Positions 18,397-64,000 of a stretch of 64,000 bases of DNA are shown here, piece by piece (positions within the stretch are counted from its first letter, which is position 1; every line of letters starts with the position of its first letter). The position numbers were made by a program, and so were the translations under genes. The stretch comes from Ulva prolifera (taxonomy: Eukaryota; Chlorophyta; Ulvophyceae; Ulvales; Ulvaceae), in assembly GCA_023078555.1 (NCBI GenBank), contig CM041204.1, forward strand, positions 1,460,923-1,524,922, given 5' to 3'. A model generated the notes under the pieces. It was not told where the DNA came from. It saw nothing but the letters and a program-made list of their open reading frames with translations, and made no database searches.

Positions 18397-19318
18397 GGCC
18401 CGCAATGTGCGCCACCCGTACCACTCACCGCTAATATTTTCCAACATCCATGTGGCTAATACATGTGTGCCATGAAGGATTCTGGCACCGGGAATCGAAC
18501 ACATCAGACAAGGCAACAGGGACGACAGACGCCTGCTTTAACACATCGACCAGCCTTCCCGTCGATGTGCGAATCTTTCCACAGCTGTCCATATCTCACC
18601 GAGATATCACACCGGAACCAGGGAAATTCATATCTAAGAATGCGGGGAATCACAGGCGTTCACTTCAAACGCATTCAGTTGTTTGTCTCACGTACAGCGA
18701 AAACAGCGAATCGCGCGGCAATGTCCGGATTTTCGCGCTCTGCCTTGCTCGGTAACATATGTATCTCAGTATGCCTAGGCTGCAGCAGGGTGATGTGTGC
18801 GCACAGCGCCGCACACGCACAGCGCCGCACAGAGCCGCACACGCTGCGCGCTGACCGTTCACTTGAACATGATGTGTGCGCGCACGAAAATGCCCACCGA
18901 CGTGACTTGTTCGTAAACGTTGCAACGCGCGCGTTGCCTAACCTTCTCAATGCTTCATCAGCGTGATGTGTCCGTGCACGAGGGCGCCACGTATCTCGAG
19001 ATATCGATTGCGCGTGAGTTCAGGATCCACAGGTGTGAGACCTTGCTTTCAATAACTCCTTCATTTTCGCCGCGATCTTTAAAGAACGTTTTTCTCTAGA
19101 GATAAGGACCGTGCGTGGGTGGCGATTGCCTCAAACTCGACATTTCACCTTGACGTCCACACTGCGTCAGACCACCTATGCACGTGCTATGGTCGGCTCT
19201 GGTCTGTTGCTGGTCGTGTCGAATGACCTCGTCCACGGCATGGCAGTCGAGCCCCCGGAGGCTCGGCGCTTGGCATTTGATAATACTTGTTAGGCCATAT
19301 CTGCAATGCTAGGGTCCC

Positions 19319-19591
19319 ATGGGCAAGCCGAAGCGGAAGGAGCCGTCAAAGGCAAAGCTGAGCGACCTGAACCGCCAGCACGCTTCGCAGTCGCCCGTGC
19401 GACCTAGCCTATTGATTACAGACCAATGTAGCATCCTAGATACTAATGAAGTTGTTAACTGCAACAATGGACAGCTCGCAGTCGTGCAGCGCGAGTCACC
19501 GCGCGGGTCTCCACAGCCCAAGCGCCGGCGCGCAGCACCTGCCAGCGGGACAGCTACCGAGGCTCATCTCTCTGCAGATACAAGCAAACAG
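19319..19591 (+). CDS. orphan first exon of an unknown basic protein
   Basis: The ATG in CCCATGG context opens a 91-codon exon that ends in phase 0 at a strong donor (CAAACAG|GTAAAA). The product begins MGKPKRKEPSKAKLSDLNRQ and later has PQPKRRRAAPAS, two basic clusters of nuclear-localisation type. No domain is recognised. The open frame runs on for about 65 codons past the donor, into the CACTA element that starts at 19719. No further exon is found on the left side of the transposon, and the right side is pure satellite. The remainder of the gene is therefore lost, lies beyond the window, or was never there. Confidence 0.5.
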
Positions 19592-19718
19592 GTAAAATCG
19601 GCGCTGAATGTGGTGCCTGGTGAGACTCAGCTCGCCACGGCTGCCCCTCAGCAGCCGCCAGCCACCAGCAACGACCAGCACGACAGGGCTCACGGCACTG
19701 CACAGTGCCACCACCCAC

Positions 19719-19737
19719 CACTAGGAGAATGGCGACA
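19719..19737 (+). repeat. left terminal inverted repeat
   Basis: The first 19 bases are CACTAGGAGAATGGCGACA. They differ from the inverted right end only at position 7 (G versus A). Beyond base 19 the similarity becomes patchy, with CGGATCCG, TTCGGAT and TCCGATGTCACCGGA motifs that resemble subterminal motifs of the right end. Confidence 0.9.
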
Positions 19738-20190
19738 TTGCGAGACGGATCCGGGTGTCGTCCGACAGATTCGGATAGGCCGTTGACTCTCCGTCACTTC
19801 TCGGCAGCGTTCCGATGTCACCGGATCCGAGGTGCTTGGACTTTGGCGCCGTATTATCCGTTGACACGCCCATTATCTGCCGGACCGTGCTCGTATACAT
19901 TGCATCTGCTGGTCAGGGCGGGCGATGCTGTCATGCTACGAGGCCACGTTGGACCACGCTATTGCGCACAGTGGATGGGCAGATACAATATTACTACGAT
20001 TCGTTTTGCATCTTAGATTGCTAGTACCAACGACAGTGCTATAGCATGTTCGAGTTGGACGGCATGAACCAGACTTTGGGCAGGTGACGTTGTGGCCAGA
20101 ACTTGGAGGCGGCGGGCACTGTATTCTTGGATGTTTTTTTTGACCAGGACGAGTGGTCTGCAGTTTTGGCGCGGCAGCAGGTAAAACAGT

Positions 20191-20480
20191 GTTATGCGAG
20201 GGTCGTCGCGCTGCGAATGCCATGCGAGTGGTGCTGAGGAGGTTCCAATCTTTTTCCAATAACGCATGCATGCGCTGGTCCAGAGTGGCCATTCGCCGAA
20301 TGGCCACTCTGGTGGAATGACGTCATCCGGTCCGTGACGCAGTGTTGTGCGAGGGTCGTCGCGCTGCGAATGCCAGGCCAGTGATGATGGGGAGATTGTA
20401 CTTTTGCTCGAGTCCACGCATGCATGCGCTGGACCAGAGTGGCCATTCGGCGAATGGCCACTCTGGTGTAATGACGTCAG
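20191..20480. repeat. left subterminal duplication, each unit with a large palindrome
   Basis: Two copies offset by 153-154 bp (starts 20191 and 20344) share GCGAGGGTCGTCGCGCTGCG and other segments. Each copy ends in a palindrome. The first (20280-20312) has 16-bp arms around one C, and the second (20433-20467) has 17-bp arms around one G. The arm core is AGTGGCCATTCG / CGAATGGCCACT. The core GCCATTCG-N-CGAATGGC recurs five times near the right end of the element. By analogy with the subterminal repeats of other CACTA elements these may bind an element protein. That is inference. Confidence 0.8.
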
Positions 20481-20729
20481 CCACCCATCCGAGAGAGCAC
20501 GATGCAGCTGCTTTGGTGCCCTCGAACGTGACTCTTGCAGAAGGACAGGATAGATCTATCTAGAGCCTGTTGAGGCAGGATTGTATTGATCGCGTGCGTT
20601 CTTAGCAGACCTGGTGTTGCAGTTTGAGGCAGTCGGAAGGACGTTGAGTTTAAACGCATATCTGCGCAGCTTGTGTGTAGTTACCGCTGATGCGAAAAAG
20701 CGTTTGATCTCCTACTGTGGCCTTTAGTC

Positions 20730-23700
20730 ATGGATCCGCGCCATTCTGCAGCTGTGGCAGGCCTGCCAAGTACCCAACATGGTGTGACTTCCGCGCGCAG
20801 CGCAGACTTACTGGTCGGCCGCATGCGCACTAGGAGAATCCCAGTAGTGGGATCGTTTATTACTAGAGACGGGCGTTTTACGGACCGTGCCCGCGTCGGT
20901 GGCTCAAGTGGTCCAGCATCCGGGCCTGGGGTTGAGGTGTGGTGGGGCCTGGGGTTGGTCTTGCGGGACGCCGTGGTCGTCAGTTGGGACCAGGAGCTGG
21001 GTACGGCCAAGGAGGTGATCATTACAGCCTGTCTCCTGTTCGCCGGCTGGCTCCACGAGCAGACTCTGCTCGTGTCCTCGTGGGAGGGACATGGGAAGAC
21101 CCAAGTTGGGTGTACGGAGCCCCGGAGGTGGAAGCCTCTGAAGGGAACGACGGAGGTGTGGGCCTGTTGGGCACGTGGGCGGTATCACATGTTCATGACC
21201 TGCACCCTCGCTCTGCTGCGACCGCCTGTTTGACTGACACCGCCTGTTTGACTGACAAGGGGCCCAGCCGACGTGCGGAGTGGGTGAGGAGTTAGTGCCA
21301 CCACCTGTGCAGGTTAGGGTGACCGGCCTGGTAACCGATTCAGGCGTCCGGACAACAGCAATCACCGAGGCAAGAGATCCGGAGCTGGCCCAGCGCTATG
21401 AGATTCCACATGCCAACGTGGGGGATAAGCGCAAAGGCCCGGACCCCCCGCCTCCTGACGGTGTGCTCACGTTCCATCTGCGGCAGTCAGTCCCTTTGGC
21501 ACCCCGCGTGCGCGCCAACACCACCGCGTTTGTACATAGTTGAAGTACCTGTAGTTCATTGGCGTGTCCCAGAGGTCCCGGGTAAGGCACTTAATCGGAG
21601 TCGTCGGTGCAGTTTTCTGGTGCTCAACACCCCGACACATTGTGTGGGCATGGGCTTCGTACGTCTCCGGCCTGTCCCCACATGCCACAAAACTGTGGAC
21701 CGCCGGGAAGCAGAGTGCCGCGGAGGGGGGGGCCGAGGCAGGCCGGAGCAGGGAGAGACCCACCTCCAACCTTCCAGAGGGACTCAACCCTCTGGTAGCG
21801 TGGGTCCTGTATGAAAACGCACACTGCAGCCGTTTCCGCAGCGTGAATGAAAAGCTGCTCCAGCCGGCCGATTCGGTAGCCCGGCACATTGGGGACCGGT
21901 GTCACGCGATGCTGGCCAACACAAATGGGGTCCCTGCCACCCCGGTGTACGAGCTGACCTCGGGCGCTCCGGTCTTAGCGGACATGGACGCCTTCCACTC
22001 TGACCTCATCCACGCGCTCGTGCGCTCCTGCGACTCTACACTTTTGCGGTGTTGTTTGGCAGCATTGCATGTATGCGTGCGGGTTGTTCACAGGGCTTGC
22101 ATGCACCCGCGCATGCATGGTAGTGGCTGTGGTGTCACCGTTACGGGTGATACCTCGGTCCTGCCCTGTCACAGGGCTGCGCTCGAGTTGTCCAACAGGC
22201 CTCCTTGCGTGCAGGATGTGAAATGCCTCGGCGACTTCGTCGCCGCTGTATCCACTCTAACACCCTGGGTGTTGGCTTATGCGGCGGAGCACCCGCTGTT
22301 CGATAGGTCAGGGGTGCGATGCGCCAATGTTCTGTAAGTGTCAGCTTGACCTGCGTGACTGCGTTCTGCTATGGCTTCCACCAGTTTGTCCATCCCCCCG
22401 GGCTGGTTAACACCTTGTTCCAACCGTGCAGGGAGACCGAGTTGCCCGAGCCCTCCGCCCCAAGTGGAGCTCTGTCCACAACTTCTACTCCCACATTATG
22501 GGAGCATGTGTAGGGCTGCGGCGAACCACCGAGGACCTGGCGGCATTCGCCGAAAGTGGTGTCCACCTGTTCATGCATGCCTACCGGCGCCTCGTCGCTG
22601 CGGCAGTGACCGGCCACCCTGGGGCGCCTGTCCTGGAAACGCGGGGCCAAGAGGACATTCCAGCGATGGAGCCCACCCTCCTGGATCCTGCCTTTGCCGC
22701 CATCCTGGTGTGCGTGGTGAATACCAGCTGTGCGCAGTCTCCTTTTCGTTTGCCATTGTGCCTGTGCACTGTACAGTGCTGCCTTGTAGTAGCCCCTCGT
22801 GTGGGGCAAGCCAATACTGAGCAGGCGTTGCGGACACCTGAAGCACACGGCGCGTGCAGCCGTGGTGAAGTCGGGGTACGGTCTTCCCGTCAAGAAGTTG
22901 GTGGGCGAGCTGCTGCCCTTGTGCCCTTCCCACACGCTGTGGCACTGGGCGCTCCGGAGCTGGCGGCACCTGAGTGTGGCGCATAAAGTCTCCGCGGGGA
23001 GCAGTTCGGGCAGGCCGGTCTCCACGACCGCCGTTCGCCTAAGGCCAGGGACGTTCCCTGAGATCAAGGACTGGGGATACGCCGGCGCTGTGGAACTGGC
23101 AAAGCTGTCAATCGCCAAAGGAATGCAGAGTCCAAGCTGCTACAAGTGCGCACACTCCGTAATCCGTGTGTTTCCGTGCCAGCGGGTCTCTGCTTACTAA
23201 ATTGCTGTGTCTATTGCCTGTACCATGTGTCCCAACTTGTTATGAAATACCCTGTGGCCACTTCAGTGTATCTTTCTTTGGGTGCAAATCTGGTACTTGT
23301 GCAGTGCCGAGCTCGTCCACATACCCGCGGGCATCCTCGCCGCTCTCCCGGAGGACAGCCGCCACCCCCCTGTCATACCACCAAGTGCGGGCACGGGGGG
23401 GGTCGGCGTCGGGCGCAGTGCAGCAGAGAAGGCTGCTGCTGACAAGCGCGATCGTGTAGCCGGTGGGAAGTCTGGAGTGGGGAGGGTTACCGGCGCGGGA
23501 CGCACCGGTGCACGCAGTAAGGCTTTGTTGCTGCGCAAACTGGGCGCCCGGAAAGCCGAAAAGGGAGCCACGGCTGCCAGTGCCCCCACGGACAGCGACA
23601 GCGACACAGAGGAGTCCGTTGGGCGGGGGGGGGCCCTGGGCCGTCCAACCGGGGGGTCAGCGGCTCCTAAGCCGCTCGGTAGCGCTGATGCAGTTGTGTC

Positions 23701-24979
23701 CGGGCAGGGAGGACCAGCTCCGCAGCCGAGGGGGGGCGGGGGGGCAGCGGCTCCCAAGCCGCTGGGCAGCGCTGACGTAGCTATGTCCGGGCAGGGAGGA
23801 CCAGCTCCGCAGCCGAGGGAGGGCGGGGGGGCAGCGGCTCCCAAGCCGCTGGGCAGCGCTGACGTAGCTATGTCCGGGCAGGGAGGACCAGGTCCGCAGC
23901 CGAGGGAGGGCGGGGGGGCAGCGGCTCCCAAGCCGCTGGGCAGCGTTGACGCAGCTATGTCCGGGCAGGGAGGACCAGGTCCGCAGCCGAGGGAGGGCGG
24001 GGGGGCAGCGGCTCCCAAGCCGCTGGGCAGCGTTGACGCAGCTATGTCCGGGCAGGGAGGACCAGGTCCGCAGCCGAGGGAGGGTGGGGGGGGTGAGGAT
24101 GGCCTGGTGCCTGATCCAGCAGAACCCGGAGAGTTGCAGTCCACAGTGGCAGCAGCCGGCGGGCCGCCCGAGTCGCTGGCTCCTGTCAAGCCGCCGGGCC
24201 TTGCAGCGCCATCTGCTGTACCTGCAGCACTTCCGTTGGATGGGGCATGTGCCCCAGACGACCTGGGATGGGGTCTCATGATGCCGGTCCGCCCGAGCGA
24301 GGTGAGTGCCGTGCCTACTGCTGCACAGCCGGGTGGGGCCCCAAGCCGAGTTGCATCGGCAGGGCCGGGTCTGGCCAACCCATCTTCCCCTCAGGCGGGC
24401 CCTGGTGACTTCCCCTACCCCGTGCAAGCGGCGGGGGTGACACTCGGACCGGCTGCATTAGGGGCAAGGGAAGCTGTCGGTGGCCATGGCGATGGTGTTG
24501 ATACTGCTGGTGCCATCACCGACTATGCATCAGCCATCGCCTTCGCTGTTCGTCTTACAGATGATGCGTCGGACGGTCTTTCCGGTATGGGCCTTGAAGG
24601 TGATTCGGATGATGATCAGGCGGGTGAGGAATTCACACCTGGGCCCCCGCCATCCCAGGGCATCCACCTGCAGGATGACGAGGGCAGCCTGCAGCTGACT
24701 GTGGACCAGTGTCCCGCAGCGCGGCAAACCCACCTGCGGGTGGACGCCTACTTAGACATCTCGCAGGCACATGGAATAGGGCGCCCTGCTCAACTGCGGC
24801 TCATCGTGGTAGCCTGCCAAATCATGATGTTGAGTAATCCCAGGCTGCAGTGGGATCCGGAAGCGCTGACTGCCAGCCTGCGGTCGGTGATTCAACTGTA
24901 TGGGCTTCTGCCTGACGATGCCACTGTCAGTGAGATCATCCAGCTTTTCCAACTAGTATGCTCCGTCATTTTCTATTAA
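20730..24979 (+). CDS. unknown transposon-borne protein A, multi-exon, repeat-rich
   Basis: Not recognised. The model starts at the ATG at 20730 (MDPRHSAAVAGL). Well-supported phase-0 exons are 20730-21155, 21313-21531, 21714-22019, 22215-22313 and 22431 to about 22708; later coding blocks lie at about 22830-23135 and 23300-24955. Donors include GTGCGC and GTATGC. The encoded segments include VAWVLYENAHCSRFRSVNEK, WSSVHNFYSHIMGACVGLRR and FPEIKDWGYAGAVELAKLSI. The last exon begins CSAELVHIPAGILAALPED, has five tandem 29-residue repeats, an acidic stretch (GDSDDDQAGEEF) and a C-terminal helical part (AQLRLIVVACQIMMLSNP). More exons past the donor near 24956 are possible. It is transcribed toward the protease gene. 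It could be an accessory DNA-binding protein of the element, but no motif shows it. Confidence 0.55.
23657..24091 (+). repeat. 5 x 87-bp coding minisatellite
   Basis: Five in-frame copies of a 29-residue unit, consensus AAAPKPLGSADVAMSGQGGP followed by APQPREGGG, in protein A. Copies 2-3 and 4-5 form closer pairs (SADVAMS versus SVDAAMS), which suggests stepwise duplication. The length is a multiple of three in each copy, so the frame is kept, and this supports translation. Confidence 0.85.
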
Positions 24980-25243
24980 CTTGCCCTGAACGTGACAGCT
25001 GTTTGCCCTAGCCCCCCACTGTTGCAATTGCTCCCCCAACCCATAACCTGTACCGCCGCTCCGCCCTGCCCCTTGTCCTCTATCGGTAGTTGCTACGGCG
25101 TTACACGCTTCTCCAAGTGCAGGGACGCCAGACTACCTAGGGGAGGACTGTAAGGGAGTGCCCGGCGGTCGATGACGCACTACAGGGGGTATGTGGGCTT
25201 GCGGTAGGGTTCCGTGACTGGGTTCGGGGAGCGGTGTTTGGGC

Positions 25244-25254
25244 GGGGGGGGGGG

Positions 25255-25302
<48 letters not shown>
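25244..25302 (+). repeat. G homopolymer of about 59 bases
   Basis: G run broken by a single C at 25255. It lies between convergent genes of the transposon and can form G-quadruplex or R-loop structures. The exact length is uncertain in an assembly. Confidence 0.8.
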
Positions 25303-26101
25303 CTGTGTGATTGCAATCTCGTTTCCCTGACGTGCGGTTGAGCCTTGATTTGTTGGGCGTATGGATGCAGTCATTCTGTGCTGTCGATGCTGGTTTCCCA
25401 GTGTCTGATGATGGTCCTTGGGGTATTAACGAAGGCCACCTGTTGGCATGCTGTACCTCAGTACATATGTGACAGATCGGCTGCGTGAGCCTGGGTATCA
25501 AATGTGGAGCTTTTCTTATGCCTCTACAGATGTACTCAATAGACTGCGAACCCGCTACCCTTCGTCCTGCATATTATAGCCGATGCGTATCGTTTCTGTA
25601 TTGTCGAGTGTACAAACTGTCCAAAATGTGACATGGTACAAGTAATCCTATCGCAAATAGACAGGTTCAGCACTCAGTGTACAACTTCCGGTGTATCCGT
25701 TGTAACGGTAGGCAGTCAACCACCCTAGGTCGAGATTTGACAGGTCTACCTCTACAGTAGCCCCTTCGCCAAAGGGACCCTGTGGCCACCTGCCCCATGG
25801 TCTCCGCGTTCCTACGACCTACATTAGCAGTGGCACATACAGGACCCCTGCCACCTGACTGGCGAGCTCACCACCTGCTGCTTGGCTATGACAGTTATCC
25901 TACCGGCGATGATGTCCACGTCTACATGACTCAGCGACGCAGTTGCAGGTTCTTGGCCATTAACTGGTTGTATTGCCTGCAGATTGTTTTGACGTGCGGC
26001 TTTGCTTCCTCCATGAAGTCGTCAAAACTCGCTTGGAGATACCACAGCCTGCAGTCAGGTAGTTCCTAGTGTGAGACTTATTTGATATTGCGGCGTTGCG
26101 G

Positions 26102-26102
<1 letters not shown>

Positions 26103-26137
<35 letters not shown>
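26103..26137 (+). repeat. G homopolymer of 35 bases
   Basis: An uninterrupted G run just downstream of the stop of the protease gene, which reads the other strand, where the run is C. It is the same type of tract as the one 860 bases to the left. Confidence 0.8.
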
Positions 26138-26138
<1 letters not shown>

Positions 26139-26188
26139 GCTCTCCCGAGGTTCTGAATACGTAATGGGACTGCTACCCCTGTGGAACC

Positions 26189-28477
26189 CTACTGCGCCGA
26201 GATGCATCGAGGGAAACAGGTAGCCCTGCTCATCACAGTTGGGTGTGGAGGTGCATACCTCAACTCTTCTTCGGACTTGTCTGAAAAGGGCGGAGACTGG
26301 AGGTGGCGGTCCCATCTCGCGTCGGCTAGAATGCTGGTGGCATCTTCCGCGGATAGGTGGCCCAGCACATCGCCACCTCTCCCACCCCGGTGCCACTCTT
26401 GTATGAGTGCCCGGGTTAGGAGGATACGGTACAAAACCGCGTGTTGCACGCTGATGCGCTTTGTGCGAACAATGACCCTTCGAGTCACTTCCACGCCGTG
26501 CTCATCACTGCGCACCATGTTCCCCCCCTCCTGTCGCATCTCGCTCATAGCCTGGCATACCGCGTCGGCCATTACAGCTGTGTAGACCCCGCAGTCGTGG
26601 CCGTTCCGTTGCTGCGGGACTCCGGCGACCTGTACTCCACAGTGGGGTCTGGTGGGGGACTGAGGTGACATCGGGTAACCGATGCAACGTACGGTCCAGA
26701 ACGATGGTACGGCCCAGTGGGGTGCTGTCAGGGGTGGGGCCGGGATGCGGGTTGTTAACAGGGCTACAAGGTAATTTGATGCTTCATCCGACTCGCTGTA
26801 CGCATATTTCAGGGACTGCTAGGCCTCGTTCTAAGCAGCGTGTATAACAGTGAGATTCGAACCTTCGTCAACTTCAGCATTATCCTCGCCGTAGCTTTTG
26901 TCGGTCGGGTGACCAATCTCAGGTTGTGTCGCCGGCTCTGTCCTGCCGGCAGTGACTGGGGCTTTGGGGGGGGGGTTGGCATGAGCGGGGGCCCTGCCCT
27001 CCGCCTTGTCGAGAGCCCTGCAGAGGGCCTCGCTTAGGGCGTCCTGCACCCGCTCAGCTGTGCCCGGCCCGGCTTCCGTAAAGCTGTCAAAAAATAACAT
27101 ACTCGGGGTCTTGTCTTGTAGCATGAGCCCTGCATCAAGCCGACACAATGCGCGTTGACAGTCAGGGGCCTCCCCGCCGGGTGAGAGGACGATATGCCCA
27201 CCTAACACTCTGCACAGGCATGGTCAGGTGAGGGAGCGTACATGGATGCCATACGACAGCCAGCGCCCAGTGGCCGTTCCGCGGGACTGGGACGAGGATA
27301 CAATCGTGTTCGAATGCATGAGCTCCGTGCAGCCAGCTCCCCAAGGCGACGGTGCGGCTATCAGTCCATTCTGCTCCCGAATCCCCAATGCACACCCTAG
27401 CCATGTTCTGGCTGGGCACGGCGATGACACCCCCACCTGCCAGCTGCACACATCTAGCGCACGCATAATCTACGTGGGACGACTCCAGCCACTCCTCGGG
27501 CCACCCTCTGCCGAGGGTTTCCAAGCTCACTACCACAAATACCCTAGCTTCCCCGAAGTGACCCAGCTGCACCGACACTCCCCCCGTCGGTGGAGATGGC
27601 TCGTCGTCTTCGCCGGAGGAAATCTCCGTCGCAGGTTCCCCCTCATGCAACTGTACGGCGCCAGCTCCTGGAGCAATGGGCGACCACAGCTGCTTCAGTT
27701 TCGCCCGAGGCTTGGCTGGCAGGTTTGAAACCCACGCCGGAGGATCAGGCGAAGGCGGGGCCAGATGTGCGACGGACAACATTCCTTCAGCCACACCTTC
27801 AGCCATGGTAGCAGCATCTCGGCCGGCCGCACCCGGGTGGGGGGCAGGCAACCTCGGTCCCACCAGTCCGGGGGTAGCCCCAGACGGGTCGGCGTGTGGC
27901 TGCGCCGTGGGGTCTGCGCCGCCTGGGATGGGGGTGGCCGCGCTGTACCCGGCCGCATTGGGGGGAATGGGGCCAGGCCCGGCAGACGGGCCCGCGCCCG
28001 CTACCACCCTACCACCAGGGTGGTGGGGGGCGTCGCTGTGACTGTCGTCCTCTCCTGCTGCTGGGAGAGGCTCTGTGTTGGACGCACCTGGCAGCACAGA
28101 CTCCTTGGGCGCGGGCGGGGCGGCCTGTGATGGAGCGAGGCCCTCTATCGGTGGGGGCAGACATCCGGTGGTCCTGGAGGGTGGGGAGGCAGGGGCCTCT
28201 AGGGTGCCGGGCTGTAGTTGCTCAGGCGGCTCTGTTGTCTGGGGCCCCCCATCGGCCCGGGGGTTCGCGTGCTCCCCCCCTTCGGCTGGCTGACTTCCCA
28301 AGGCCCGCTCTACTGCGGCAGCACCCCCTCGCCTGCCACGATGGGCCCCCCTTCGCAGCTGTGCTGGCTGTTGTAGGCTCTGCCCACGGCTAAGGAGTCG
28401 CGCGGCAGAAATGAAAGTAAGAATTGAACCGGTGACCTCTAGAGTACACACGACATGCTCTAACCACTAGGGCTCAC
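26189..28477 (-). CDS. Ulp1-like cysteine protease (C48) of the CACTA element
   Basis: SUMO-protease-fold cysteine peptidase. All catalytic landmarks are present in order: His in VPVPRNGHWALAVVW (exon ending at 27242), Asp in MLFFDSF (exon starting at 27201) and Gln/Cys in VPQQRNGHDCGVY (last exon, about 26189-26633). The first junction is clean: donor GTACGC, acceptor TTAG, phase 1, giving WHP-C-GHIVLSPGG. A proline/alanine-rich, poorly conserved N-terminal region of about 300 residues precedes the protease domain. The first in-frame ATG after the upstream stop lies well inside it, so the true start may be in an upstream exon, perhaps the coding segment at 28859-29812. Ulp1 domains are known companions of CACTA and Mutator-like transposases in plants and fungi. 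Their role in transposition is unsettled. Stop at 26189-26191. Confidence 0.8.
28410..28477 (-). other. tRNA-like sequence (A-box and B-box only)
   Basis: Read on the - strand it runs GTGAGCCCTAGTGGTTAGAG, then GAGGTCACCGGTTCAATTC. CTAGTGGTTAGAGC resembles a tRNA A box and GGTTCAATTC a B box, at plausible spacing. However, acceptor, anticodon and T stems do not pair, so it is not a working tRNA. A tRNA-derived SINE head or chance are both possible, and it overlaps the open frame of the protease gene. Confidence 0.25.
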
Positions 28478-28858
28478 CTGAAGCAACGAGTCCTTTGTTA
28501 GATGACTCCTCCCTTGATTATGTCATCTATATTCTTGGATCCCCAGATATGGATATCCCACAACACTTCCCCCCTTAACGAGGATCGAGCGTAGGGAGAT
28601 CCAGATCTGATAACTGTGGGATATCTTCGATGCTCCTGATGGAATGTTGGAACCTTCTCTTCGCGTCCCGAGTCCACGGGGGCCCAACCCGCTATAACCG
28701 AACTCATATAATTGGGACTCCCTTAAGCTCGAGAGCTATGCTGACTGGGATGCGATCGCTCGGGAGGAGCTCACACAGCGGAAGGTGTAATGAAGATGGA
28801 AGATGTAAGGCAGATTACGAAGTCTGCTCACCGATACCTGTCAAGACGCGTGTTAGTC
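28478..28858. other. AT-richer gap between two - strand coding segments
   Basis: Base composition is visibly lower in GC than the neighbouring exons, and there is no coding frame. It holds an 11-bp inverted repeat GATATCCCACA / TGTGGGATATC (28552-28562 and 28615-28625) enclosing 52 bases. It could be an intron of the protease gene, or a small nested insertion. I found no target duplication. Confidence 0.45.
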
Positions 28859-29812
28859 TCATCGAGTGTGCACAGGGGTTAATGCGCGTGCCTGATGCCC
28901 CCCCCGAACCGGCCTCCCCCCGTGCCGCCAGAGCCGCTGCCCACGCCGGCCCCTGGCCCCGCCCTCCGATGCACTGCCGACGCTGGAATCAGCCTGCACC
29001 GAAGCACGGTCCTCCTCGGGTTCCGGGGATATGGCGTGCCTCGGAACTCCCACCGGACTCGAGCGAGTGGCGTCCCCCAGATCGATCTGCAATGCCATCA
29101 GCGGTGCCTGTAGCGGGGACTCCGTTACCGCAGCCGCTGGCCACTTCGGTACCGGATTCCGCGGAGCCGTGGACTCCCGCTCTACCCATTCCTTTATCCT
29201 CTCTGTCCCGCCTGTGAGCAGCACACGCTCGCGGGCGCCGCCGACATCCTCCGCCACTCCCACCGTGTCCAGGCACGATCTATACAACACAACCTCAGGG
29301 GGCTCGCACGGGGCCTCGGTACGGACTGCGCGCTCGAACGCGAGTGCTCGAAGGTCATGCCACAAGGACACCATCTTCCATTCTACGTAGGAGTCGTTGT
29401 CCGTCGGGGTCACTGCGTCTGCCGCTTCTTTCATCGCCTGTATCGAATCAAGGTACGTCTCCAGCCCATCCCCTCCGGCAGCTACCACACAACCCACCAT
29501 GGTAATGTCTACTGCTGTAAGAACGTAGCCAAGACCCATGAGATCGACGGGGAATCCCGGGTCCCGGCCGCATAGCGATATCTCAGGGATGGGTTGCCCA
29601 GGCGTCCACTTCCCTCTCTCTGCGGCCTCCACGAATCGATAGAAAGACTTCTCATACGACTCATGACTGTTCAAGTTAGCTAGCAATGTCCGTAAGGCCC
29701 CATCCGATATCATACTTGCACACGACAACAGTACTCTGATATTCACCGCGAATTGAAACCTCACTCCTTCGTCAATTTCAACATAGACTGGCAAAGACGA
29801 TTGCACAATCAT
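28859..29812 (-). CDS. unknown - strand coding segment between transposase and protease
   Basis: An ATG at 29812 (MIVQSSLPVYVEIDEGVRF) opens 318 codons with balanced, protein-like composition: LLANLNSHESYEKSFYRFVE, GFPVDLMGLGYVLTAVDITM, DNDSYVEWKMVSLWHDLRAL. It ends in a hydrophilic arginine/glycine-rich tail. No domain is recognised. It begins about 230 bases after the transposase stop, on the same strand. It may be a separate gene or the N-terminal exon of the Ulp1-like protein, spliced near 28875 (CCCT|GTGCAC). The tail may be intronic read-through. Confidence 0.55.
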   Translation of the reverse strand: MIVQSSLPVYVEIDEGVRFQFAVNIRVLLSCASMISDGALRTLLANLNSHESYEKSFYRFVEAAERGKWTPGQPIPEISLCGRDPGFPVDLMGLGYVLTAVDITMVGCVVAAGGDGLETYLDSIQAMKEAADAVTPTDNDSYVEWKMVSLWHDLRALAFERAVRTEAPCEPPEVVLYRSCLDTVGVAEDVGGARERVLLTGGTERIKEWVERESTAPRNPVPKWPAAAVTESPLQAPLMALQIDLGDATRSSPVGVPRHAISPEPEEDRASVQADSSVGSASEGGARGRRGQRLWRHGGRPVRGGHQARALTPVHTR

Positions 29813-30041
29813 CAGGTAGTATACTGTGCAATGGAGACGACATGCGCTAGCGATTGCGACGCCGGTGGTCGAAGAAGGCCACATGTGGCTACACGCGCAC
29901 TGAGTACAGGGACTGGATGAGGCAGGTGACCACCGGTGTACATATGTTGACGCTGAACACGACCCGACTTGGTCCAACTTGGCCCCAAATGACCCGTCCC
30001 CCAGGGACAGAAGGGATAGCTTACATGACAGCAAGGGTCCT

Positions 30042-33000
30042 TCACACGGTGCGGCCTGATGCCTTGTTGGCAGTCGCCCAATACTGCACACATTGTACAC
30101 TACTTCTGACGGGGACTAGTTGGCAGGGCACAGCATCCACGTCTATCACGTATCTGCCTTCATACGCCCTGGACCCAGGGTGTGCACCCGCCACACAAAA
30201 AAACTCGGGGGGCCGCCCCAACACGGGGTCCGGCGCGCGGGCTCCGGGTGTGACTGGCTCCGTACTCCTATACAGGTCGGCAACCCCCAGATACAAGGGG
30301 TCGGGCTTGTGCACACATGACACGCAGGTGACCCCGTCCCGGGGCTGCAACGTCGCCCGCATCAAGTACTGCAGCTCCCCTACGTAGTACGTCACTGTCG
30401 CTCCGCCCTCTCCCCGACCCCCCTCAATGAGGTACTTCACTAGGCACCACTTATTATCCTTCTTTCCTTGTGTCGACTGCTGTGCACTGCTGAAGACGTC
30501 CCCCACGCGGGACTGTACCCGTTGGAATTTGCACAGGGTCACTGTGCCCTCCTTGCGACATTCATCTACAGAACCTGACACTGGCAACCCAATAGCCCGG
30601 GTGATAGCCACCCGGCGGGCATGGCCCGCCCCCAGGCGACAGTGCGTAGGCCAGCCCTCTTCCTGGAGGGAGTCCTGGTGGAGGAGGAGGTACGGCAGCC
30701 CGGAATTGGCCCCTCCGTTGAAGTCCGGAGGGAGCACCTCGGCTGACTCCGACAGAGACAGCTCCCTGCCAGCACCATGCACCCGGCCGGTAACCCGGTC
30801 AATATCAAGTGATTGCTCGGGTGCTGACCTGCCACTGCGCGTTCGCGCCCTCCGGCGTTTTTCGGTGGCAATGGCATCCGACAGAGTTGTCATGGCTGCA
30901 TTCACTGTGCCAGCATCGTGCAATAACCGCATGCAAGTCCGACGAAGCAGTTCATCGTTCACATACACCTGTTCTGGACAACGAGTGGAACGGTACTTGA
31001 TCAGCCTCTTCAGCAGCTGGACCATCCGCTCTATCCAGAATTCGAGACTGAAGTAGGCTGCACCGCAACACCTCACCTGATCTGGGAGGTGACAAGCCGC
31101 CAGATGCAGCTTGTAGGTACTGATAGCAGCTCCCTCGAATGTCTCCTCCGCGAGTTTGGCGTACTGCAGCAGCGTCCCCTGGGCCTGTGTGATCCGGGCT
31201 GGTGTGTGCTGCCCCGGTTCATATCTGAGGAAATACAGGGCCCCTGCTCGCAGGAGCCCCCACATCTGCTCAAACACTTTCCGAATTGGCAACTCGGACG
31301 GCTTCCACGGGAGATTGTGTAGGAGGTACAGGGAGAATGTCTCAGTAAAGGCCAGCCAGTCCTCCATGAGCCACCGACTGCGGTGCCTGCAGCAAACGAT
31401 TCCGTTGAGCTACCCGTGCGGATGGGGTACCGCGGCGATGACCTGCTACAAGCGGGCCCCTCGTGGGCAGGGGGAGTATCAGCCCATCCAAGGAACCGAC
31501 AACTATGGTGACGCACTTGGTGATGTCAGTGTACACTTTCCTGAAAAGGGACGTCTGCATGATATGCGGAGCTCTGGCTGCGATCGCATTGACCACATCA
31601 GCAGGCAACCGGTACAGGGCGCAGGGTCCCATCGGGGGGGCCTTCTTAGATTTCTTCCTGCCTAGCGGAGGGAGCCACTGGTTCCAAAAGTCCATCAGAA
31701 CACCAAGAAGGAAGACGTGCGCCACTCCAAGCCGGAAAAAATGACAGGGGCTGCACGCGACGCATGATGGGGTGCACAAAATTGACTCGAAGGCAAGGCA
31801 GGGAGCAGCATGCGGCAGAGGGTGCAGGGCGAACTTGAAGTAGGAGAGGATGCTGAACAGCGGGGACCCTTTCACACCCAATAGCTTGTACTCGTCCTTG
31901 GCGAGCTTAGCCCTTAACTCCGGCGTGTCTTTTTTGCAGAATCGATCCCAGGTCGGAGTGTGCACCTGAACGCCCACCCATGCATTGGGAATTCCTGCGG
32001 GGGTGCAATGGCACTCCTTCTGCGCCACCTGCTAGTTGCATTGGTCAGACGGCTTTTAGGTCGTGTTGGCGACAGTACGCTGAACATCGAGAAGGAGTGG
32101 CCACAAAGCGATCAATGCAGTAGTCCGGGAATGGGGAATAGGGGCCGAGCACACGAAGCTGCACCTGGGCGGTGATCTTGTCGCCCTTTCTGCCCCTGGC
32201 CATGATCTCCGCCGCCGAATACTTCAGTCGGTTGTCTGACATCCAAGAACTCGGTGGCACCGGCTGCGGTTCGGTCCACGCAGTCCGCGGGGGGATGCCC
32301 CCTGAGTCGGGTTGCACACTCCCGGCCACCATCCGCGGGGTTGCCGTCGATGCTGCAGCTTCCTCCTCTGGAGTGAGAGTTTTCCCCTTCAGAGGCCCGT
32401 TGACATAGCAAGGGGCGGGCTGCTGCAGAGGGCGATGGTGTCCCAGCCACCTGCACGCAGGTGAGGAGTGGTTGGAAGGTAACGTTTGGGCCAAGACAGG
32501 CAGGTGTAGGATGTGACTGGACGCTGACACTACGCACCTCACAGTGTTGGCGGAGAACACCCACACGCCGTTCTGTGCGCATCTGAAACATGCCCTCTTG
32601 GCCGTATGACCGATGCTGTTAGTAAGCTTCTCCAGCCAGGGGATATCCCCCTCCACACAGCAGAGCACCGGCCAAACGGACAGTACCTCGCCCCCTGGCA
32701 GTGTGATTTTGAGTGCCTCACCCCCAGCTCCTGCATTCAAGCCCTCACCTGGTGCGGGGGCCAGACACTACGTGATCGGGAACTGTACAAATCACGCGAC
32801 AGTGACCAGGTAGGCAAGGTGAGTGCGCGCCCCGATCATGCTTCTTGAAGAACGCCATCACGGACTCCAGAATGCTGGCCATGCATGTCGGCTCGGATGG
32901 ACCCTCCACCACACCAAGGGGAATCCAGGCCTCATTAGTACATGCGAGATGGGGCGGGAGATCAAGCAGGCGGATCCCCCAGATCGTGACGCCGTGCTGT

Positions 33001-34551
33001 TTGTTGACATACAGTTGTGCAGCATCCCCCCCTGCAAGTGAGTGGTGAGGCAACCAAGGGACACAATTCACTGCGTTTTCCAGTAAGCAGAGCGACAGAG
33101 ATGGGGAGGGCTGGACACACCGAGACCGAAAAGCAGAACGACTTCCCCGGCAGCTGGGTTCGTAATCTTGTTCCCATATGCTTCGTCCAGGGCCTTTCCT
33201 GCAGGGGAGTTGATGAAGCTGGTCTTGTCCTCGATCGCTGCTGCCCTGGCTTCTTGGATGCTCATCAGCAGCCCCGGTTGCAGCAGGAGGTCCTTCAGTG
33301 ACGCCTCTTCACCAAAGTAGAAGACAGAGCGGACTGGGACACCCTTTCCCGTGAGGTCGACGTCGAACCGTGGCTGTGTACATCCAGGTGTGCCACAGGT
33401 GTCCTCCAAGTGATGCTGATGGTCACTTGGATCAAGCTCAGGAAACAGTTCCCAGCACTGGGGACAAACGTGCCGCGTCACAGACGACACATCCGGGACA
33501 TCCAACACTGCCTTGACGAGGTGGAACGAGGGTGGGAAAAAGTTGCCATCAGGTAGCAGGAGGTAATGTATGAACCTGCACCACGTATCGACGACCACGT
33601 CTTGTATGCGAAAGAGGCTCTTCAACTGGGCAATCCACATGCACACCGTAAGTACGGTGAGGGCGCTCCCGGTGTATATGTGTTTCTTTCGTTGCTCATG
33701 CCACCAGGCTCCTGTGCCCTTCCGGGCCCCGGAGGTGGGGGGGGGGCTGTCGACGTCATCGTCCTGCAAGAGGGAGACACATGCCACATGGGAAATCAGC
33801 ACGCCAGGGGAGACACGACGTAACAGACCGATGTTGAAGTTGCCACACCTCGGACCCGTCCGTGCTGTATTCAGATTCGGACGAGGAGGGGATGGAGGAA
33901 GCGTCTGAGAAGTAGGAGTCCGAGTCTGAATCCCGGGCGGGGTACTCGGCCTCGTCGATGTCGGAGGGTGGGGGAAGCTGTAAAATCACGCGAATTAGTG
34001 CAGTAGCTGCAGATGCAGGTATGGGCAGCCGCACCGCCCGTCCTGGAACCACAGCGGGCCCACACATGGCCCACATCAGTCACTGGCAGACCAAACAACA
34101 GCAGGCAAGGCACGCGGGCATCGAGCAACAGCATGCATGGAGGGGTTCGCACAGCGAAGAGGTCGTCAGAGTTGACGGGATGGTTGGGGTGGCAAGCCAG
34201 CGCAGGGGGTATGGGCTGTGGCGAAGAGGGGCCGGCCCCATCGGGAACCCCGCTGACGTCAGCCCCAAGGGTAGCGGAGGAGAATGGCGTAGGTGGCCGC
34301 GAGGATGGACCTGCCCCATCGTGGCCACCAGCGGCTCCCGGGGCACGGGCCGCGGCGGCCTTCCTCAGGCGCTTTTGGCAAGGCTCATAGTGGTTTTGAG
34401 CGGTGGTATGTCTGACGAACTTCTCACCACAGGCTTGGCACTGGAATTTAAGTGTATCCTTCCCCACACGCTCTGGACAGAGTAGACGCTTACAGTTAAC
34501 CTCTCCCATCAAGGCATCGACCTCATCCCTCGTCCTTCTGGATCCGGCCAT
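30042..34551 (-). CDS. Tnp2-type transposase of the CACTA element, multi-exon
   Basis: Transposase of the CACTA/EnSpm type (Transposase_21-like), about 1,200 residues. Exons, 5' to 3' on the - strand: 34551-34153, 33977-33849, 33763-33121, 33031 to about 32810, about 32732-32538, 32450 to about 32115, about 31960-31517 and 31386-30042. Most junctions are phase-consistent GT-AG (donors GTGCGA, GTGTGG, GTGTGT, GTGCGT). The N-terminus has a C-x2-C-x12-H-x3-C zinc finger (FQCQACGEKF...), then an acidic serine stretch, then the Tnp2 landmarks: HVCPQCWELFPEL, GDAAQLYVNKQHG, LDLPPHLACTNEAWIPLGVV, CCVEGDIPWLEKL with GHTAKRACFRC, GVKGSPLFSI, GVAHVFLLGVLMDFWNQWL, RWLMEDWLAFT and ISTYKLHLAACHLPDQVRCC with SLEFWIERM. 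Stop at 30042-30044. All exons are open, consistent with a functional gene. The zinc-finger exon suits recognition of the element's ends. Confidence 0.88.
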
Positions 34552-34765
34552 CTTCTGCGGCCGGCATAAAAGGGTGGAAAGGCTACCTGAGTCTCTGGCA
34601 CCTGCTGTGCGGACAACCGCATTCAGGTCGAAAGAGTACAGCGACACGTACACAGAACCACGGCGACGGGACGTGCGCCGGGATATCGAGGCAGACCGGT
34701 ATTCGAAAGCAGACACCGCTACGACGCTTGACTGCCTTACCAGTGAAAGCGCGGCACAGCACAGC
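34552..34765. promoter_or_regulatory. divergent promoter region between transposase and protein D
   Basis: The 214 bases between two head-to-head starts (transposase ATG at 34551 on -, protein D ATG at 34766 on +) must hold both promoters, unless upstream exons exist. CATAAAAGGG at 34565-34574 is a TATA-like box for the + strand, 190 bases from the ATG. No motif matching the palindromic repeats of the element was seen here. Confidence 0.45.
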
Positions 34766-37278
34766 ATGTCAGGACAAATATGTGTGATACTGATTCACAA
34801 TAACACCTACTGCCGTTGCGTATCTTACTGTCTAAACATCTACGTCGATTACCGCAGTTTGACCAACCTGCAGTTTAAATTTCTTCGCGCCTCGCCGGTC
34901 GTGATCGAGCAAGAAGTTGTAGATGATGTAGAGGTCGGAGGAGGGATGCTCGATGTGCTGGTGAGCAACGTATGGAGCAGAGGCGCCGGCGTCGACGGTT
35001 TAACTCTGGCGTCGACCGTTGACAAGGACAGCACCGTAGACATCGACAGTCAAGATAAACTGAAGACTTGCGTGTTGTACTTCTTCAAGAAAGGCACCAT
35101 AGCCGGTGTGCTTGTGTCGCCCGTGCTCGTGAAGCCGCTGGGGAAAGGGAGAGGGGGCTTGGCAGCAGCGCCGACAGCGCAGGGCACTGCCTGTTCCACC
35201 GCCACGGCTGCGTGCGGCGAGGATCACGAGAAGTGGGAGCGGATGAAGGATGGGGTACTGATGTGGACGGCAGGGATGGAGAAAGTAGTCGCTGGCATGG
35301 CGGAGGCTGACACAGAAGGAAAGCTGGTGAATGCACTCGTCAACGAGGAGGCCCCAGCATACGAGAGGATGTTCCCAGGCAGCTTTCAAACGAAATTTTT
35401 CGCGGACGCGCTGAGGAATGCAGCAGCAGGGGTGCGACAGCCATGTCAGAATAACAACGTGCTTGGAACATGTCGTCCGCGGTCAGCCCTCCAGCACCTG
35501 TGGCTGCCGACCTATCGTGTGAGCTCCTCACTCCGGTCCGTGATAATATATGCGTGCAGTAATTACTGACAGATGTTGTGTACAGGACGGAAAAACTGGC
35601 GCAGCTTACGTCGCTGCGAGGAATATCAGCAGCGCTTTCTACAGTCAGATTGGCTGTCTGAGCAACAAGAACAAACAGTGCGCTGCGCAGGATGCTTAAG
35701 TTTCCAGCTTGTTTTGATGCAGCTGTGGTGTTGCGTCCCGGGCCCGATATGGGCAGCCTGAGGGGCGTTTGCCGAGTGTGCAGGAAGTTTCCGGGACGGG
35801 CGTATGACCACAACATAGCGATGCGAAGGAAGGAATCGTATCGTGAAGCTCCCCATCTGCTTGCGGCACTGCACAAGTCTGCAAACTCCAAGGCACGTCC
35901 TTCTCCTTGGTAGGGGCTGGAGTAGCCATTCGCCGAATGGCCACTCTGTGCGGTGTCATGCATTGTCTTGCACTGCACGCGGCTGGAGTAGCCATTCGCC
36001 GAGTGGCCACTCTGTGTGGTGTCATGCATTGTCTTGCACTGCACGCGGCTGGAGTAGCCATTCGCCGAATGGCCACTCTGTGTGGTGTCATGCATTGTCT
36101 TGCACTGCACGCGGCTGGAGTAGCCATTCGCCGAATGGCCACTCTGTGCGGTGTCATGCATTGTCTTGCACTGCACGCGGCTGGAGTAGCCATTCGCCGA
36201 ATGGCCACAACATAGCGGTGTCATGCATTGTCTTGCACTGCACGCGACGTACCAAGAGCCTGTGCAGTTCACCATTAGAGGAGACCGGACCCCAATAGAC
36301 CACGAACCCTTGAAAACGCCCGAGGCATGGGCAATGGAGGACGGCGTGTATGTGTGCGAAAATCTCGTGGCAATCACTGGGGCCCGACGCGCTATAGAAG
36401 GGACCGCAGACTCGCCCATGAAGCCTGGCAAGAGACCACGAAAGAGCGGGAAGGTACTTCCACCTGACACCCTGTACTGACTACGCCACTGATGTGTTCT
36501 ACCTGTGACATCGACCGTGACAAGCAGGCGCTCCTGCAGGCACATACCGCAAACAAGGCATCGAGACAGGGAGGTCATCCCAACACACGACGGCGCAAGG
36601 TGCTCGACGATCTGCCATCCCCACCACGAGCGCTGGCGCGACGATCAAGGGCAGACCAATCAGTTCATGATAACAGTGTACAGCAGCCGGCAACGGACGA
36701 GGCAGATACCGCCGAGTTGGATGAAGAGGCCGAACCTGATCAGCCTGCGGACGCACGCAGCCCCTCACCGGAGATGGAAGTGCAAGCAATGGCACCGGTA
36801 CGGCTTCTCCAGCTAACTGCTTGTGTCTGAGATCTCTGTCCGTGGGTAATTGCCCCGTCCAATGCCCTGCCAGCTGGAAGAGCTCTTGCGCGATGCAGAA
36901 GTCTCAAGACGCGATCGCGAGGCGAAAGGCCAAGGCCGACAAGAAGGCTGACGAAGAAGCACGTGACGAGTTGAAGAAAAAGATTGAGGAGTACGAGACT
37001 CGGCTGGCGAAATATCGGCCCACGAGCAAGAAACCGGAAGTGCAGAAGCTCAAAGCTGATATTGCGCTATTCACGGTACGTCAATCTTCGATACAGTTGA
37101 TACTACATTTAACACCAAAGTCTGTATTAAAATCAATGTTTGCATATGATTAACCCATGCGACGAATGGATCCCAGGTGGTCTGGGAGACACGGAATAAT
37201 GCCGCAGACTCATGCATCTGGTCATGCCTGCAGGCGGAGTTGGTTAAGATTCAAGACTCCTTATTGCTTCACAAGTAG
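34766..37278 (+). CDS. unknown transposon-borne protein D with C-terminal coiled coil
   Basis: Not recognised by family. A phase-0 chain of exons with GT-AG ends is supported: 34766-35518 (donor GTGAGC), 36268-36453 (GTACTT), about 36528-36797 (GTACGG), 36899-37075 (GTACGT) and 37234-37278 ending in TAG, about 476 residues. The N-terminal 250 residues include YRSLTNLQFKFLRASPVVIE, LKTCVLYFFKKGTIAGVLVS and EAPAYERMFPGSFQTKFFAD. Exon 2 encodes GDRTPIDHEPLKTPEAWAME and a basic end (KPGKRPRKSGK). Exon 3 is charged and acidic. Exons 4-5 form a lysine/glutamate coiled coil (KADKKADEEARDELKKKIEE ... AELVKIQDSLLLHK). Divergent from the transposase, it occupies the place of an accessory TnpA/TNP1-like protein. 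That role is inference. Its first intron holds the 5 x 66 bp palindrome array. Confidence 0.6.
35915..36246. repeat. 5 x 66-bp array of palindromes in protein D intron 1
   Basis: Units start at 35915, 35981, 36047, 36113 and 36179. Each contains AGCCATTCGCCGAATGGC, an 8-bp-arm palindrome around one C, then CACTCTGTG and GTGTCATGCATTGTCTTGCA. Unit 5 replaces CTCTGTG by AACATAGC, matching CCACAACATAGCG found upstream at 35808, so the array grew beside that sequence. The same palindrome core appears in longer form near the left end (20280 and 20433). Open frames across the array on both strands (VAIRRMATP-type repeats) are by-products. Confidence 0.88.
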
Positions 37279-38046
37279 CGAAGGCGCTTCGGTCAATATT
37301 GATTAATCGTCCAACATAGGTCCTCTGCCCGGTCGGGTTCATATCATGTTACGAGATGTTGAGTGTCCCTGTAGCAGTGAATGCTTGCTCTGACTCGAGG
37401 TGAATGTGGGAAGTGCAGGCAATGTAAGCACACACATCACACTGACTCAGGCAAGCTGCCAATTCCAGACCCGTGTTCACGTTCCCCAAATGGTCAACAC
37501 TAGATTCCCAATCAAAGCACGTACGTGCACGCCGAACACCACTCCATGTACACGTCAGTTGATGCAACTCACGCCCAGCAAGCTCTTGGCGACTCATTGA
37601 TCGGTGTCTACAAGTGCACTTGTCGAGTCACGAATGTATCAGCGTCCACGATTAACGAACCATTCGTGACATGCCTCGCGAGATGTCACAAGCCGCACGT
37701 CATAAATCACCATGGACTACGGCCCAGCCTACGCTGTCCGTCGCCCCCTGTCGGACGCCATACGTATGCGCTCCGGATCAGGCAGTTTATGCAAATCTCC
37801 GTTCTCCGTCCGTCGGACGGCCAACGGATCCGTGATTTCCTCCGCTCATTGTCCGATGCGGCTCCTAAGTGAGGCTGAAGGCAACCAGCGTTGCCTTGTG
37901 ACTCACCGGACGGGAAACGGAACATCCTGCCTACCTCTGTGACGTCGCCCCGATAGTCCGTGCAACATACGTCTGGCCTCCACCGATTCTCCGAAGGCTC
38001 TCCAACTGCCCCTCCGTACACACTACGTCAGCTCTCCGATTCACCG
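37279..38046. other. right subterminal region of the CACTA element
   Basis: No gene is seen. Short motifs related to TCCGAT, CCGTCGGACGG and CACCGGA recur (about 37735-38045), resembling those just inside the left end (for example TCACCGGA on both sides). This is what subterminal transposase-binding repeats look like, but the motifs are short and degenerate. Confidence 0.5.
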
Positions 38047-38065
38047 TGTCGCCATTCTTCTAGTG
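38047..38065 (-). repeat. right terminal inverted repeat
   Basis: Read inward on the - strand it is CACTAGAAGAATGGCGACA, one mismatch from the left end. The base after it begins CAC, the 3-bp target duplication, which is also the start of the satellite. Confidence 0.9.
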
Positions 38066-63982: not shown

Positions 63983-64000
63983 AGTCCACGGAGGCAAGTC

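Follow-up and report, generated by a model that had tools for sequence, protein, structure and literature searches.

The DNA analysed here, referred to as the window, is a stretch of 64,000 nucleotides from the green alga Ulva prolifera (C9:1460923-1524922). It contains a CACTA/EnSpm transposon of 18,347 bp at positions 19719 to 38065. As in other CACTA elements, its terminal inverted repeats begin with 5′-CACTA; the left repeat, CACTAGGAGAATGGCGACA, occupies 19719-19737 on the forward strand and the right one, CACTAGAAGAATGGCGACA as its reverse complement, 38047-38065 on the reverse strand. The original prediction, made by a model from the letters of the window, had stated that these ends match at 18 of 19 bases, and this was confirmed. 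The shared end pattern CACTAGNAGAATGGCGACA was found 122 times (58 forward, 64 reverse) in the 88.9-Mb genome (44 contigs) from which the window comes, and the pattern read backwards as a control 0 times. Pairs of ends were chosen by eye among the first 100 of the 122 listed matches. A perfect 3-bp target site duplication (TSD) was found in nine of ten complete copies that were read (17.6-18.5 kb) and in 16 of 21 additional insertions, of which the ends were sampled. In total, 25 of 31 other insertions have a TSD, whereas 100,000 shuffles of the same flanks gave 1.48 on average and never more than 8. For two insertions nested in copies of the family empty sites were available: the joined flanks, minus one duplication, give gap-free alignments of 498 and 500 bases with copies lacking the insertion. 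The search for copies sharing both ends and for empty sites, proposed with the original prediction as a check, was thus carried out; with shared ends, TSDs and two exact empty sites, a full-length CACTA element with these ends is established, and its boundaries are secure from the other copies.

The element encodes four genes in the order G1 (+), Ulp1-type protease gene (-), transposase gene TNP (-) and G4 (+). Gene models were derived by comparison with five diverged copies, from shared splice sites and codon substitution; ten of eleven elements entered the gene comparisons, C1_3931 being excluded. G1 (20730-24979, forward strand) has seven exons (20730-21155, 21313-21460, 21613-22019, 22215-22313, 22432-22729, 22860-23145 and 23305-24979), and 10 of 10 copies share the best splice sites at all six junctions. 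Its protein begins with MDPRH, and an array of 87-bp repeats (23650-24092) lies inside its last exon. G4 (34859-35690, forward strand) consists of the exons 34859-35431 and 35586 to about 35690, its end being approximate. The protease gene (26229-29713, reverse strand) comprises an N-terminal domain (29713-28896) and Ulp1/C48 exons at 28391-27242, 27129 to about 27060 and 26629-26229, with an approximate donor site of the last intron. A separate fifth gene at 29713-28896 was considered and rejected, since this domain continues into the protease frame in C4_2925 and C3_4848; because of this continuity, and because many matches of the domain lie in open frames of 600-816 codons, four genes are counted.

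TNP (30042-34551, reverse strand) has 9-10 exons and about 1,200 codons. The exons are located at 34551-34153, 33977-33849, 33763-33121, 33031 to about 32807, about 32730 to 32543, 32419-32165, 31965 to about 31831, about 31755 to 31517 and 31386/31377-30042. The original prediction of open transposase exons holds: in the window no internal stop codon interrupts the 8-exon model of 1215 codons, nor the nine exon segments, and at five of the seven junctions tested the best splice sites are common to 10 of 10 alignable copies including the window. All nine segments are open in 6 of 10 copies. A frameshift suspected near 32770 was rejected, as the region is gap-free across the ten alignable copies, and it is therefore treated as a short intron with approximate borders. 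Catalytic residues were assigned by eye, by motif and position, and likewise the first D by eye. The second catalytic D (EGDIPW, 32653-32636) is followed by the C(2)C motif CFRC (32590-32579), both on the reverse strand within 32579-32653, and GDIP and CFRC are found in 10 of 10 copies. The H(4)H motif HLAACH (31106-31089) and the last catalytic E (IERM, 31034-31023), on the reverse strand within 31023-31106, are found in 9 of 10 copies as HLAACH or HLAASH and IER or FER; C1_4665 carries an indel in this exon. C(2)C and H(3-4)H motifs between the second D and the last E are described as common to EnSpm and its relatives by Kojima 2025 (PMC12730594). By this pattern of D, C(2)C, H(4)H and E, TNP is classified as an EnSpm/CACTA transposase of the DDE (Asp-Asp-Glu) type.

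For the protease gene, Pfam Peptidase_C48 was matched with an E value of 5e-9 in the window and 5.2e-11 in C5_8637, in both cases with spliced exons whose last junction was guessed; one window exon alone gave 0.0033. The C48 active-site motifs are present as NGHW, FFDS and QQ(P/R)NGHDCG, and an alignment of the C5_8637 protease to SENP2, again with the last junction guessed, has His, Asp, Gln and Cys in place. The product is a predicted Ulp1-type, SUMO-protease-like enzyme.

Near both ends the element carries subterminal repeats, as CACTA elements do. On the left (20187-20479) they contain the palindrome GAGTGGCCATTCG(S)CGAATGGCCACTC, and on the right (35915-36246) 66-bp tandem repeats have the same palindrome core. 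The 10-mers that make up this palindrome, CGAATGGCCA and its neighbours, occur 163 times in the outer regions of 11 elements (1,500 bases on the left, 2,800 on the right) and 0 times in their interiors. The core of the subterminal palindrome, GAATGGC, is also found within the terminal repeat.

Copy numbers in the genome are lower bounds, as the searches scored the best candidates only. One TNP exon gave at least 102 matches (95 of 293 candidates scored), and 57 of the 65 matches that span the whole exon are free of stop codons. By their identity to the window in this exon, the matches were sorted into four lineages: A with at least 94%, X with 70-82%, Z with 54-67% and Y with 40%. A second end pattern, CACTAGNAGAATGGTGAC, is related to the first and was found 61 and 59 times on the two strands, with 0 in the control; it forms the end of both Z elements read. 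Among the complete copies, the pairs C5_8637/C6_1775, C2_4039/C4_2925 and C1_4665/C2_7139 are 99.6%, 99.0% and 98.6% identical. The element thus belongs to a high-copy CACTA/EnSpm family of about 18 kb, some copies of which are young. Outside this genome, a single scan of viral contigs with one TNP exon as query detected no relatives.

Selection was analysed by the ratio of nonsynonymous to synonymous substitution rates (dN/dS) between the window and the X copies C3_4848 and C4_2925. The values are 0.16-0.17 for TNP, 0.29-0.34 for the protease gene, 0.36-0.38 for G4, and 0.36-0.40 and 0.39-0.50 for the N-terminal and C-terminal parts of G1, compared with at least 0.86 in the other two reading frames. 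These ratios indicate purifying selection on all four genes between the subfamilies. They also bear on the idea that the element is an ordinary autonomous CACTA transposon, in which G1, the protease gene and G4 are transduplicated host gene fragments with no role in transposition. CACTA elements do capture gene fragments, and the ULP domains of grapevine elements are treated as transduplicated in the respective study (PMC2528002). Moreover, low-complexity parts of G1 and the protease differ strongly between copies, and constraint is weak between close copies. However, the four genes occur together in three transposase lineages, in which the TNP exon is 54-67% to about 80% identical to the window, dN/dS outside TNP is 0.29-0.50 in the comparison with the X copies, and most of the listed single-exon matches of these genes are stop-free. 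We therefore regard transduplicated fragments as an unlikely explanation.

An unexpected result emerged when the copies were compared. Relatives which are about 95-99% identical in the transposase, and whose G4 and right end agree at 91-99%, contain G1 and protease genes that are only 65-78% identical. These two genes behave as an exchangeable accessory cassette at approximately 20450-30050. Lineage X contains two cassette types, of which C3_4848 and C4_2925 carry one each. Between these two copies the left end (94%), TNP (95%) and G4 with the right end (91%) are highly similar, whereas identity is 69% in G1 and 65% in the protease block. The synonymous substitution rate (dS) follows the same blocks, with 0.06 for TNP and 0.05 for G4 compared to 0.59-0.69 for G1 and 0.94-0.98 for the protease gene. 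A third copy, C1_3844, combines the two types: its cassette resembles those of C3_4848 and C1_10025 (identity 0.92 and 0.91 in G1, 0.87 in the protease gene), and its TNP, G4 and right end are 0.99 identical to C2_4039 and C4_2925. C1_3844 groups with C3_4848 and C1_10025 in the cassette tree and with the four copies of the other cassette type in the core tree, each with a support of 1.0. Along C1_3844 and C4_2925, identity falls at about 20.35-20.5 kb, is 48-79% from about 20.5 to 30.0 kb when taken in steps of 500 bases, and returns to 97-100% thereafter. The change falls within 30001-30100, where the TNP stop codon lies.

The same blocks might be expected if the cassette had simply evolved faster than the core, with no exchange at all, and the protease and the C-terminal part of G1 are indeed less constrained than TNP. 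We consider such unequal evolution highly improbable: dS jumps as well, from 0.06 in TNP to 0.59-0.98 in G1 and the protease gene of one pair, C1_3844 switches to C4_2925-like sequence within 100 bases, beyond which non-coding DNA is also 97-100% identical, and it changes partners between well-supported block trees. In addition, differences in rate cannot produce an inversion, as it was found in lineage Z.

Gene order was determined by combining the positions of the protein matches for TNP (79 of 102 rows used), the protease N domain (87 of 105), G1 (91 of 95) and G4 (90 of 99); the rest, mostly short or weak, were dropped by eye. The order of the window was found at 9 of 17 loci in lineage A, 21 of 31 in X and 12 of 28 in Z. 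At seven Z loci the block of G1 and protease gene is inverted, giving ULP(+) G1(-) TNP(-) G4(+). One further inverted Z locus lacks a G4 match, two have G1 inverted and no protease match, and at one A locus G1 is found in the other direction but possibly belongs to a neighbour; the remaining loci lack one or more genes. The inverted Z element C1:10269245-10287642 is bounded by ends that match at 18 of 19 bases and by the TSD GTT. Compared to a Z copy of standard order, it is 98.9% identical in the TNP exon and G4 and 98.5% in the first 201 bases, but identity drops to 68% for the protease N domain and to 78% for a G1 exon. For the standard-order copy the left end was found but no right end within the stretch read; the end pattern occurs further out, at C1:9287868. 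In both copies the TNP stop codon is followed by three palindromic units of 67 bp. The inverted copy has 12 units of this repeat in opposite orientation near its left end.

In our view, these results are best explained by a high-copy CACTA/EnSpm transposon of about 18 kb with two functional halves, a core of TNP, G4 and the ends and a cassette of G1 and the Ulp1-type gene (probability roughly 0.8). Transposition would most likely proceed as in En/Spm: TNP as the DDE enzyme would cut at the 5′-CACTA ends and insert the element with a 3-bp staggered cut, and a second element protein would gather the subterminal palindromes, which share their GAATGGC core with the terminal repeat. TNP, probably together with G4, would recognise and join the ends. 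This assignment, with the cassette acting on the host, is suggested by the fact that TNP and G4 travel together, the ends mostly following, whereas G1 and the protease gene need not match them. The cassette proteins probably have their targets in the host; the protease, for instance, might strip SUMO or a similar modifier off proteins of silencing or repair. The reason for this view is that a cassette of only about 65-78% identity can take the place of another, or the cassette can be inverted, while TNP and G4 remain nearly constant. Exchange and inversion would most likely arise via recombination between copies, and in lineage Z the palindromic arrays at the cassette border, which lie in inverted orientation to each other, would help both by recombining.

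Several observations weigh against this reading. To begin with the mobility of the family, 6 of the 31 other insertions have no TSD. In TNP there is no match to Pfam Transposase_21; a genome search for this domain gave nothing, and control genomes gave no match either. DUF4218 was detected in TNP with E values of 0.015 and 0.056, which fall short of the cut-off, and a related frame at C2:11892188 (39% identical to TNP over 170 residues) reached 9.7e-4 and 25 bits at a cut-off of 27. Profile searches gave no known match for G1, G4 and the protease N domain, and hence their roles are guesses; profile searches of PDB with G4 and the protease N domain returned 0 matches up to E 1, and the AlphaFold model of G4 was uninformative (mean predicted local distance difference test score 31). 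Between close pairs dN/dS of G4 is 1.00, 1.06 and 1.14 in three cases, that of the N part of the protease gene is 1.44 in one, and several others are 0.5-0.8; with constraint weak or absent here, recent copies may be drifting. Concerning the exchange, it is not clear that the left end goes with the transposase: in C1_3844 this end is slightly closer to copies sharing its cassette (97-98%) than to those sharing its transposase (95-96%), and the left-end tree is poorly supported. A single crossover may thus have produced C1_3844 as a hybrid, on top of an earlier replacement of the cassette that set the two types apart. As to the palindromes, the exact 67-bp unit is absent from the left end of the standard-order Z copy, where a related but different palindrome is present. 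The palindrome core that was counted was not found in the interior of the A and X elements, and so none is seen close to the TNP stop codon, where their cassette ends. It is only by position that the palindromes suggest a part in the mechanism.

The copy in the window itself had been described as apparently intact, and this was not borne out. Even its nearest sisters in the set of ten copies read differ from it by about 5% (94.7-94.9% identity). Its protease gene is interrupted at 28396-28895 by a 500-bp fragment of a small repeat, which is absent from the sisters C2_7139 and C1_4665, and the start codon of its G4, kept in both sisters, is lost. Of 103 genome matches of the interrupting repeat, 28 are full-length including the window and 96-100% identical. 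Two other copies of the repeat were read, and compared to them the fragment is circularly permuted and without a 62-bp part. These copies possess terminal direct repeats of the form TG...CA and a purine tract, and the repeat is therefore read as a miniature element of the long terminal repeat (LTR) type, presumably what is called a TRIM (terminal-repeat retrotransposon in miniature). With protease and G4 damaged, the window copy would at best supply transposase and perhaps G1.

Another part of the original prediction was a duplicated CAC at the insertion site. These letters are in fact found on both sides, at 19716-19718 and 38066-38068; that they are a true TSD is doubtful for this copy, as its flanks seem to differ in origin. 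The left flank (19200-19718) is a young dispersed repeat, with 25 of 40 matches including the window at least 95% identical over most of the query. One unoccupied copy of this repeat was read; it continues with CCCCGCCC (...CCACCCCCGCCC) and not into the satellite. On the right, a tandem array of satellite adjoins the element at 38069 and runs past the window edge at 64000 (C9:1498991 onward). Its units hold CACGGAGGCAAGTC, preceded by AAGTC, and have CAC at the same place. Hence the CAC at the window copy may be due to chance, and its two flanks seem not to derive from one target. The edge of the array coincides exactly with the right end of the element. The satellite is not present at the point C9:1600000, and a second array, on the other strand, starts at 9454 kb of C4 and extends to 9486 kb or beyond. 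A general association of the family with the satellite was rejected, since the motif AGTCAAGTC occurs in the 300-bp flanks of 0 of the 21 insertions sampled by their ends.

From these flanks the window copy could be the product of a rearrangement that placed an element between the dispersed repeat and the satellite, either by recombination of two elements or by atypical transposition. Besides the repeated left flank, which continues differently in the unoccupied copy, and the satellite on the right, the reverse-complement flanks of the neighbouring elements C9:323136 and C9:360494 speak for such an event. However, CAC is present on both sides, and it was a single unoccupied copy of the left repeat that was read. 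We hold a rearrangement to be a serious possibility, at slightly less than even odds. It concerns the window copy alone and is compatible with the two-part transposon as the best explanation for the family. For the two neighbours, C9:323136-341395 and C9:360494-378281, it is the facing flanks that are reverse complements (GGGGTGGGGTTGGG), which suggests an inversion or inverted duplication between them.

Further variants were observed within the family. Two short derivatives of 3.4 kb (C3:1549637-1553667) and 6.1 kb (C2:7364421-7371071) have matching ends and 3-bp TSDs, and are likely non-autonomous. In C1_3931 (C1:3930797-3949080) a foreign stretch stands in place of most of the transposase half. 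Captured host genes were considered for this stretch and rejected, as it contains a copia-like frame of 1852 aa, recognised by eye. No tRNA or Rfam features were detected in the first 38-40 kb of the window.

The classical maize element En/Spm, with its proteins TnpA and TnpD, has CACTA ends, subterminal repeats and a DDE transposase; it is about 8 kb long, with two gene products from one transcript unit. The algal element resembles it in its CACTA ends, 3-bp TSD, subterminal repeats and DDE transposase, but comprises four genes including a protease gene instead of two products. The 3-bp TSD and a helper protein of En/Spm are described in a study that reports CACTA elements from algae to animals (PMC4158355). 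In the original prediction, an element with several genes was placed at the upper limit of known size and gene number. Four genes were indeed found, but similar dimensions are on record. En/Spm families of the alga Chondrus crispus have 16-20 kb and 4-5 open reading frames (Kojima et al. 2013, cited in PMC6431247), and the Cactavine CACTA elements of grapevine have 10-25 kb, five families containing a ULP1-like domain (PMC2528002). Since large multi-gene CACTA elements are thus in print from a red alga and from grapevine, size is not the news. The Chondrus families belong to the same superfamily, but to a red instead of a green alga, and the likeness is one of size and number of reading frames. 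In Cactavine the ULP domain is described as transduplicated and most elements as old and defective, in contrast to four conserved genes and some young copies here. Fungal EnSpm/Plavaka elements share C(2)C, H(3-4)H, the 3-bp TSD (EnSpm) and the possession of an extra enzyme gene; this is a TET/JBP dioxygenase and not a protease, and Ulp1 is unmentioned in the text of PMC12730594. The text of a comparative paper on Chlamydomonas names Zisupton and Kyakuja elements and does not mention EnSpm (PMC8226300). Searches of the open-licence literature gave precedents for size and ULP1, but none for a CACTA cassette that is exchanged or inverted.

Tentatively, and with less confidence than we place in the two halves themselves, these elements might be seen as two-part transposons which evolve like modular phages, with a stable core and a two-gene cassette, bordered by palindromic repeats in one lineage, that has been replaced and inverted repeatedly; the transposase lineages concerned would be at least X and Z. 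If this is true, a change of the cassette may alter the dealings of the element with host silencing, and the match between transposase and ends would be preserved. Large multi-gene CACTA elements are known, and in the accessible literature little is said on the function of their extra genes. Dozens of copies in one genome, some of them almost alike in one half yet far apart in the other, represent a natural experiment on which genes must match, as the transposase and G4, and which need not, as G1 and the protease gene. Through this experiment among copies, the role of a transposon-borne SUMO-protease-like gene becomes directly testable.

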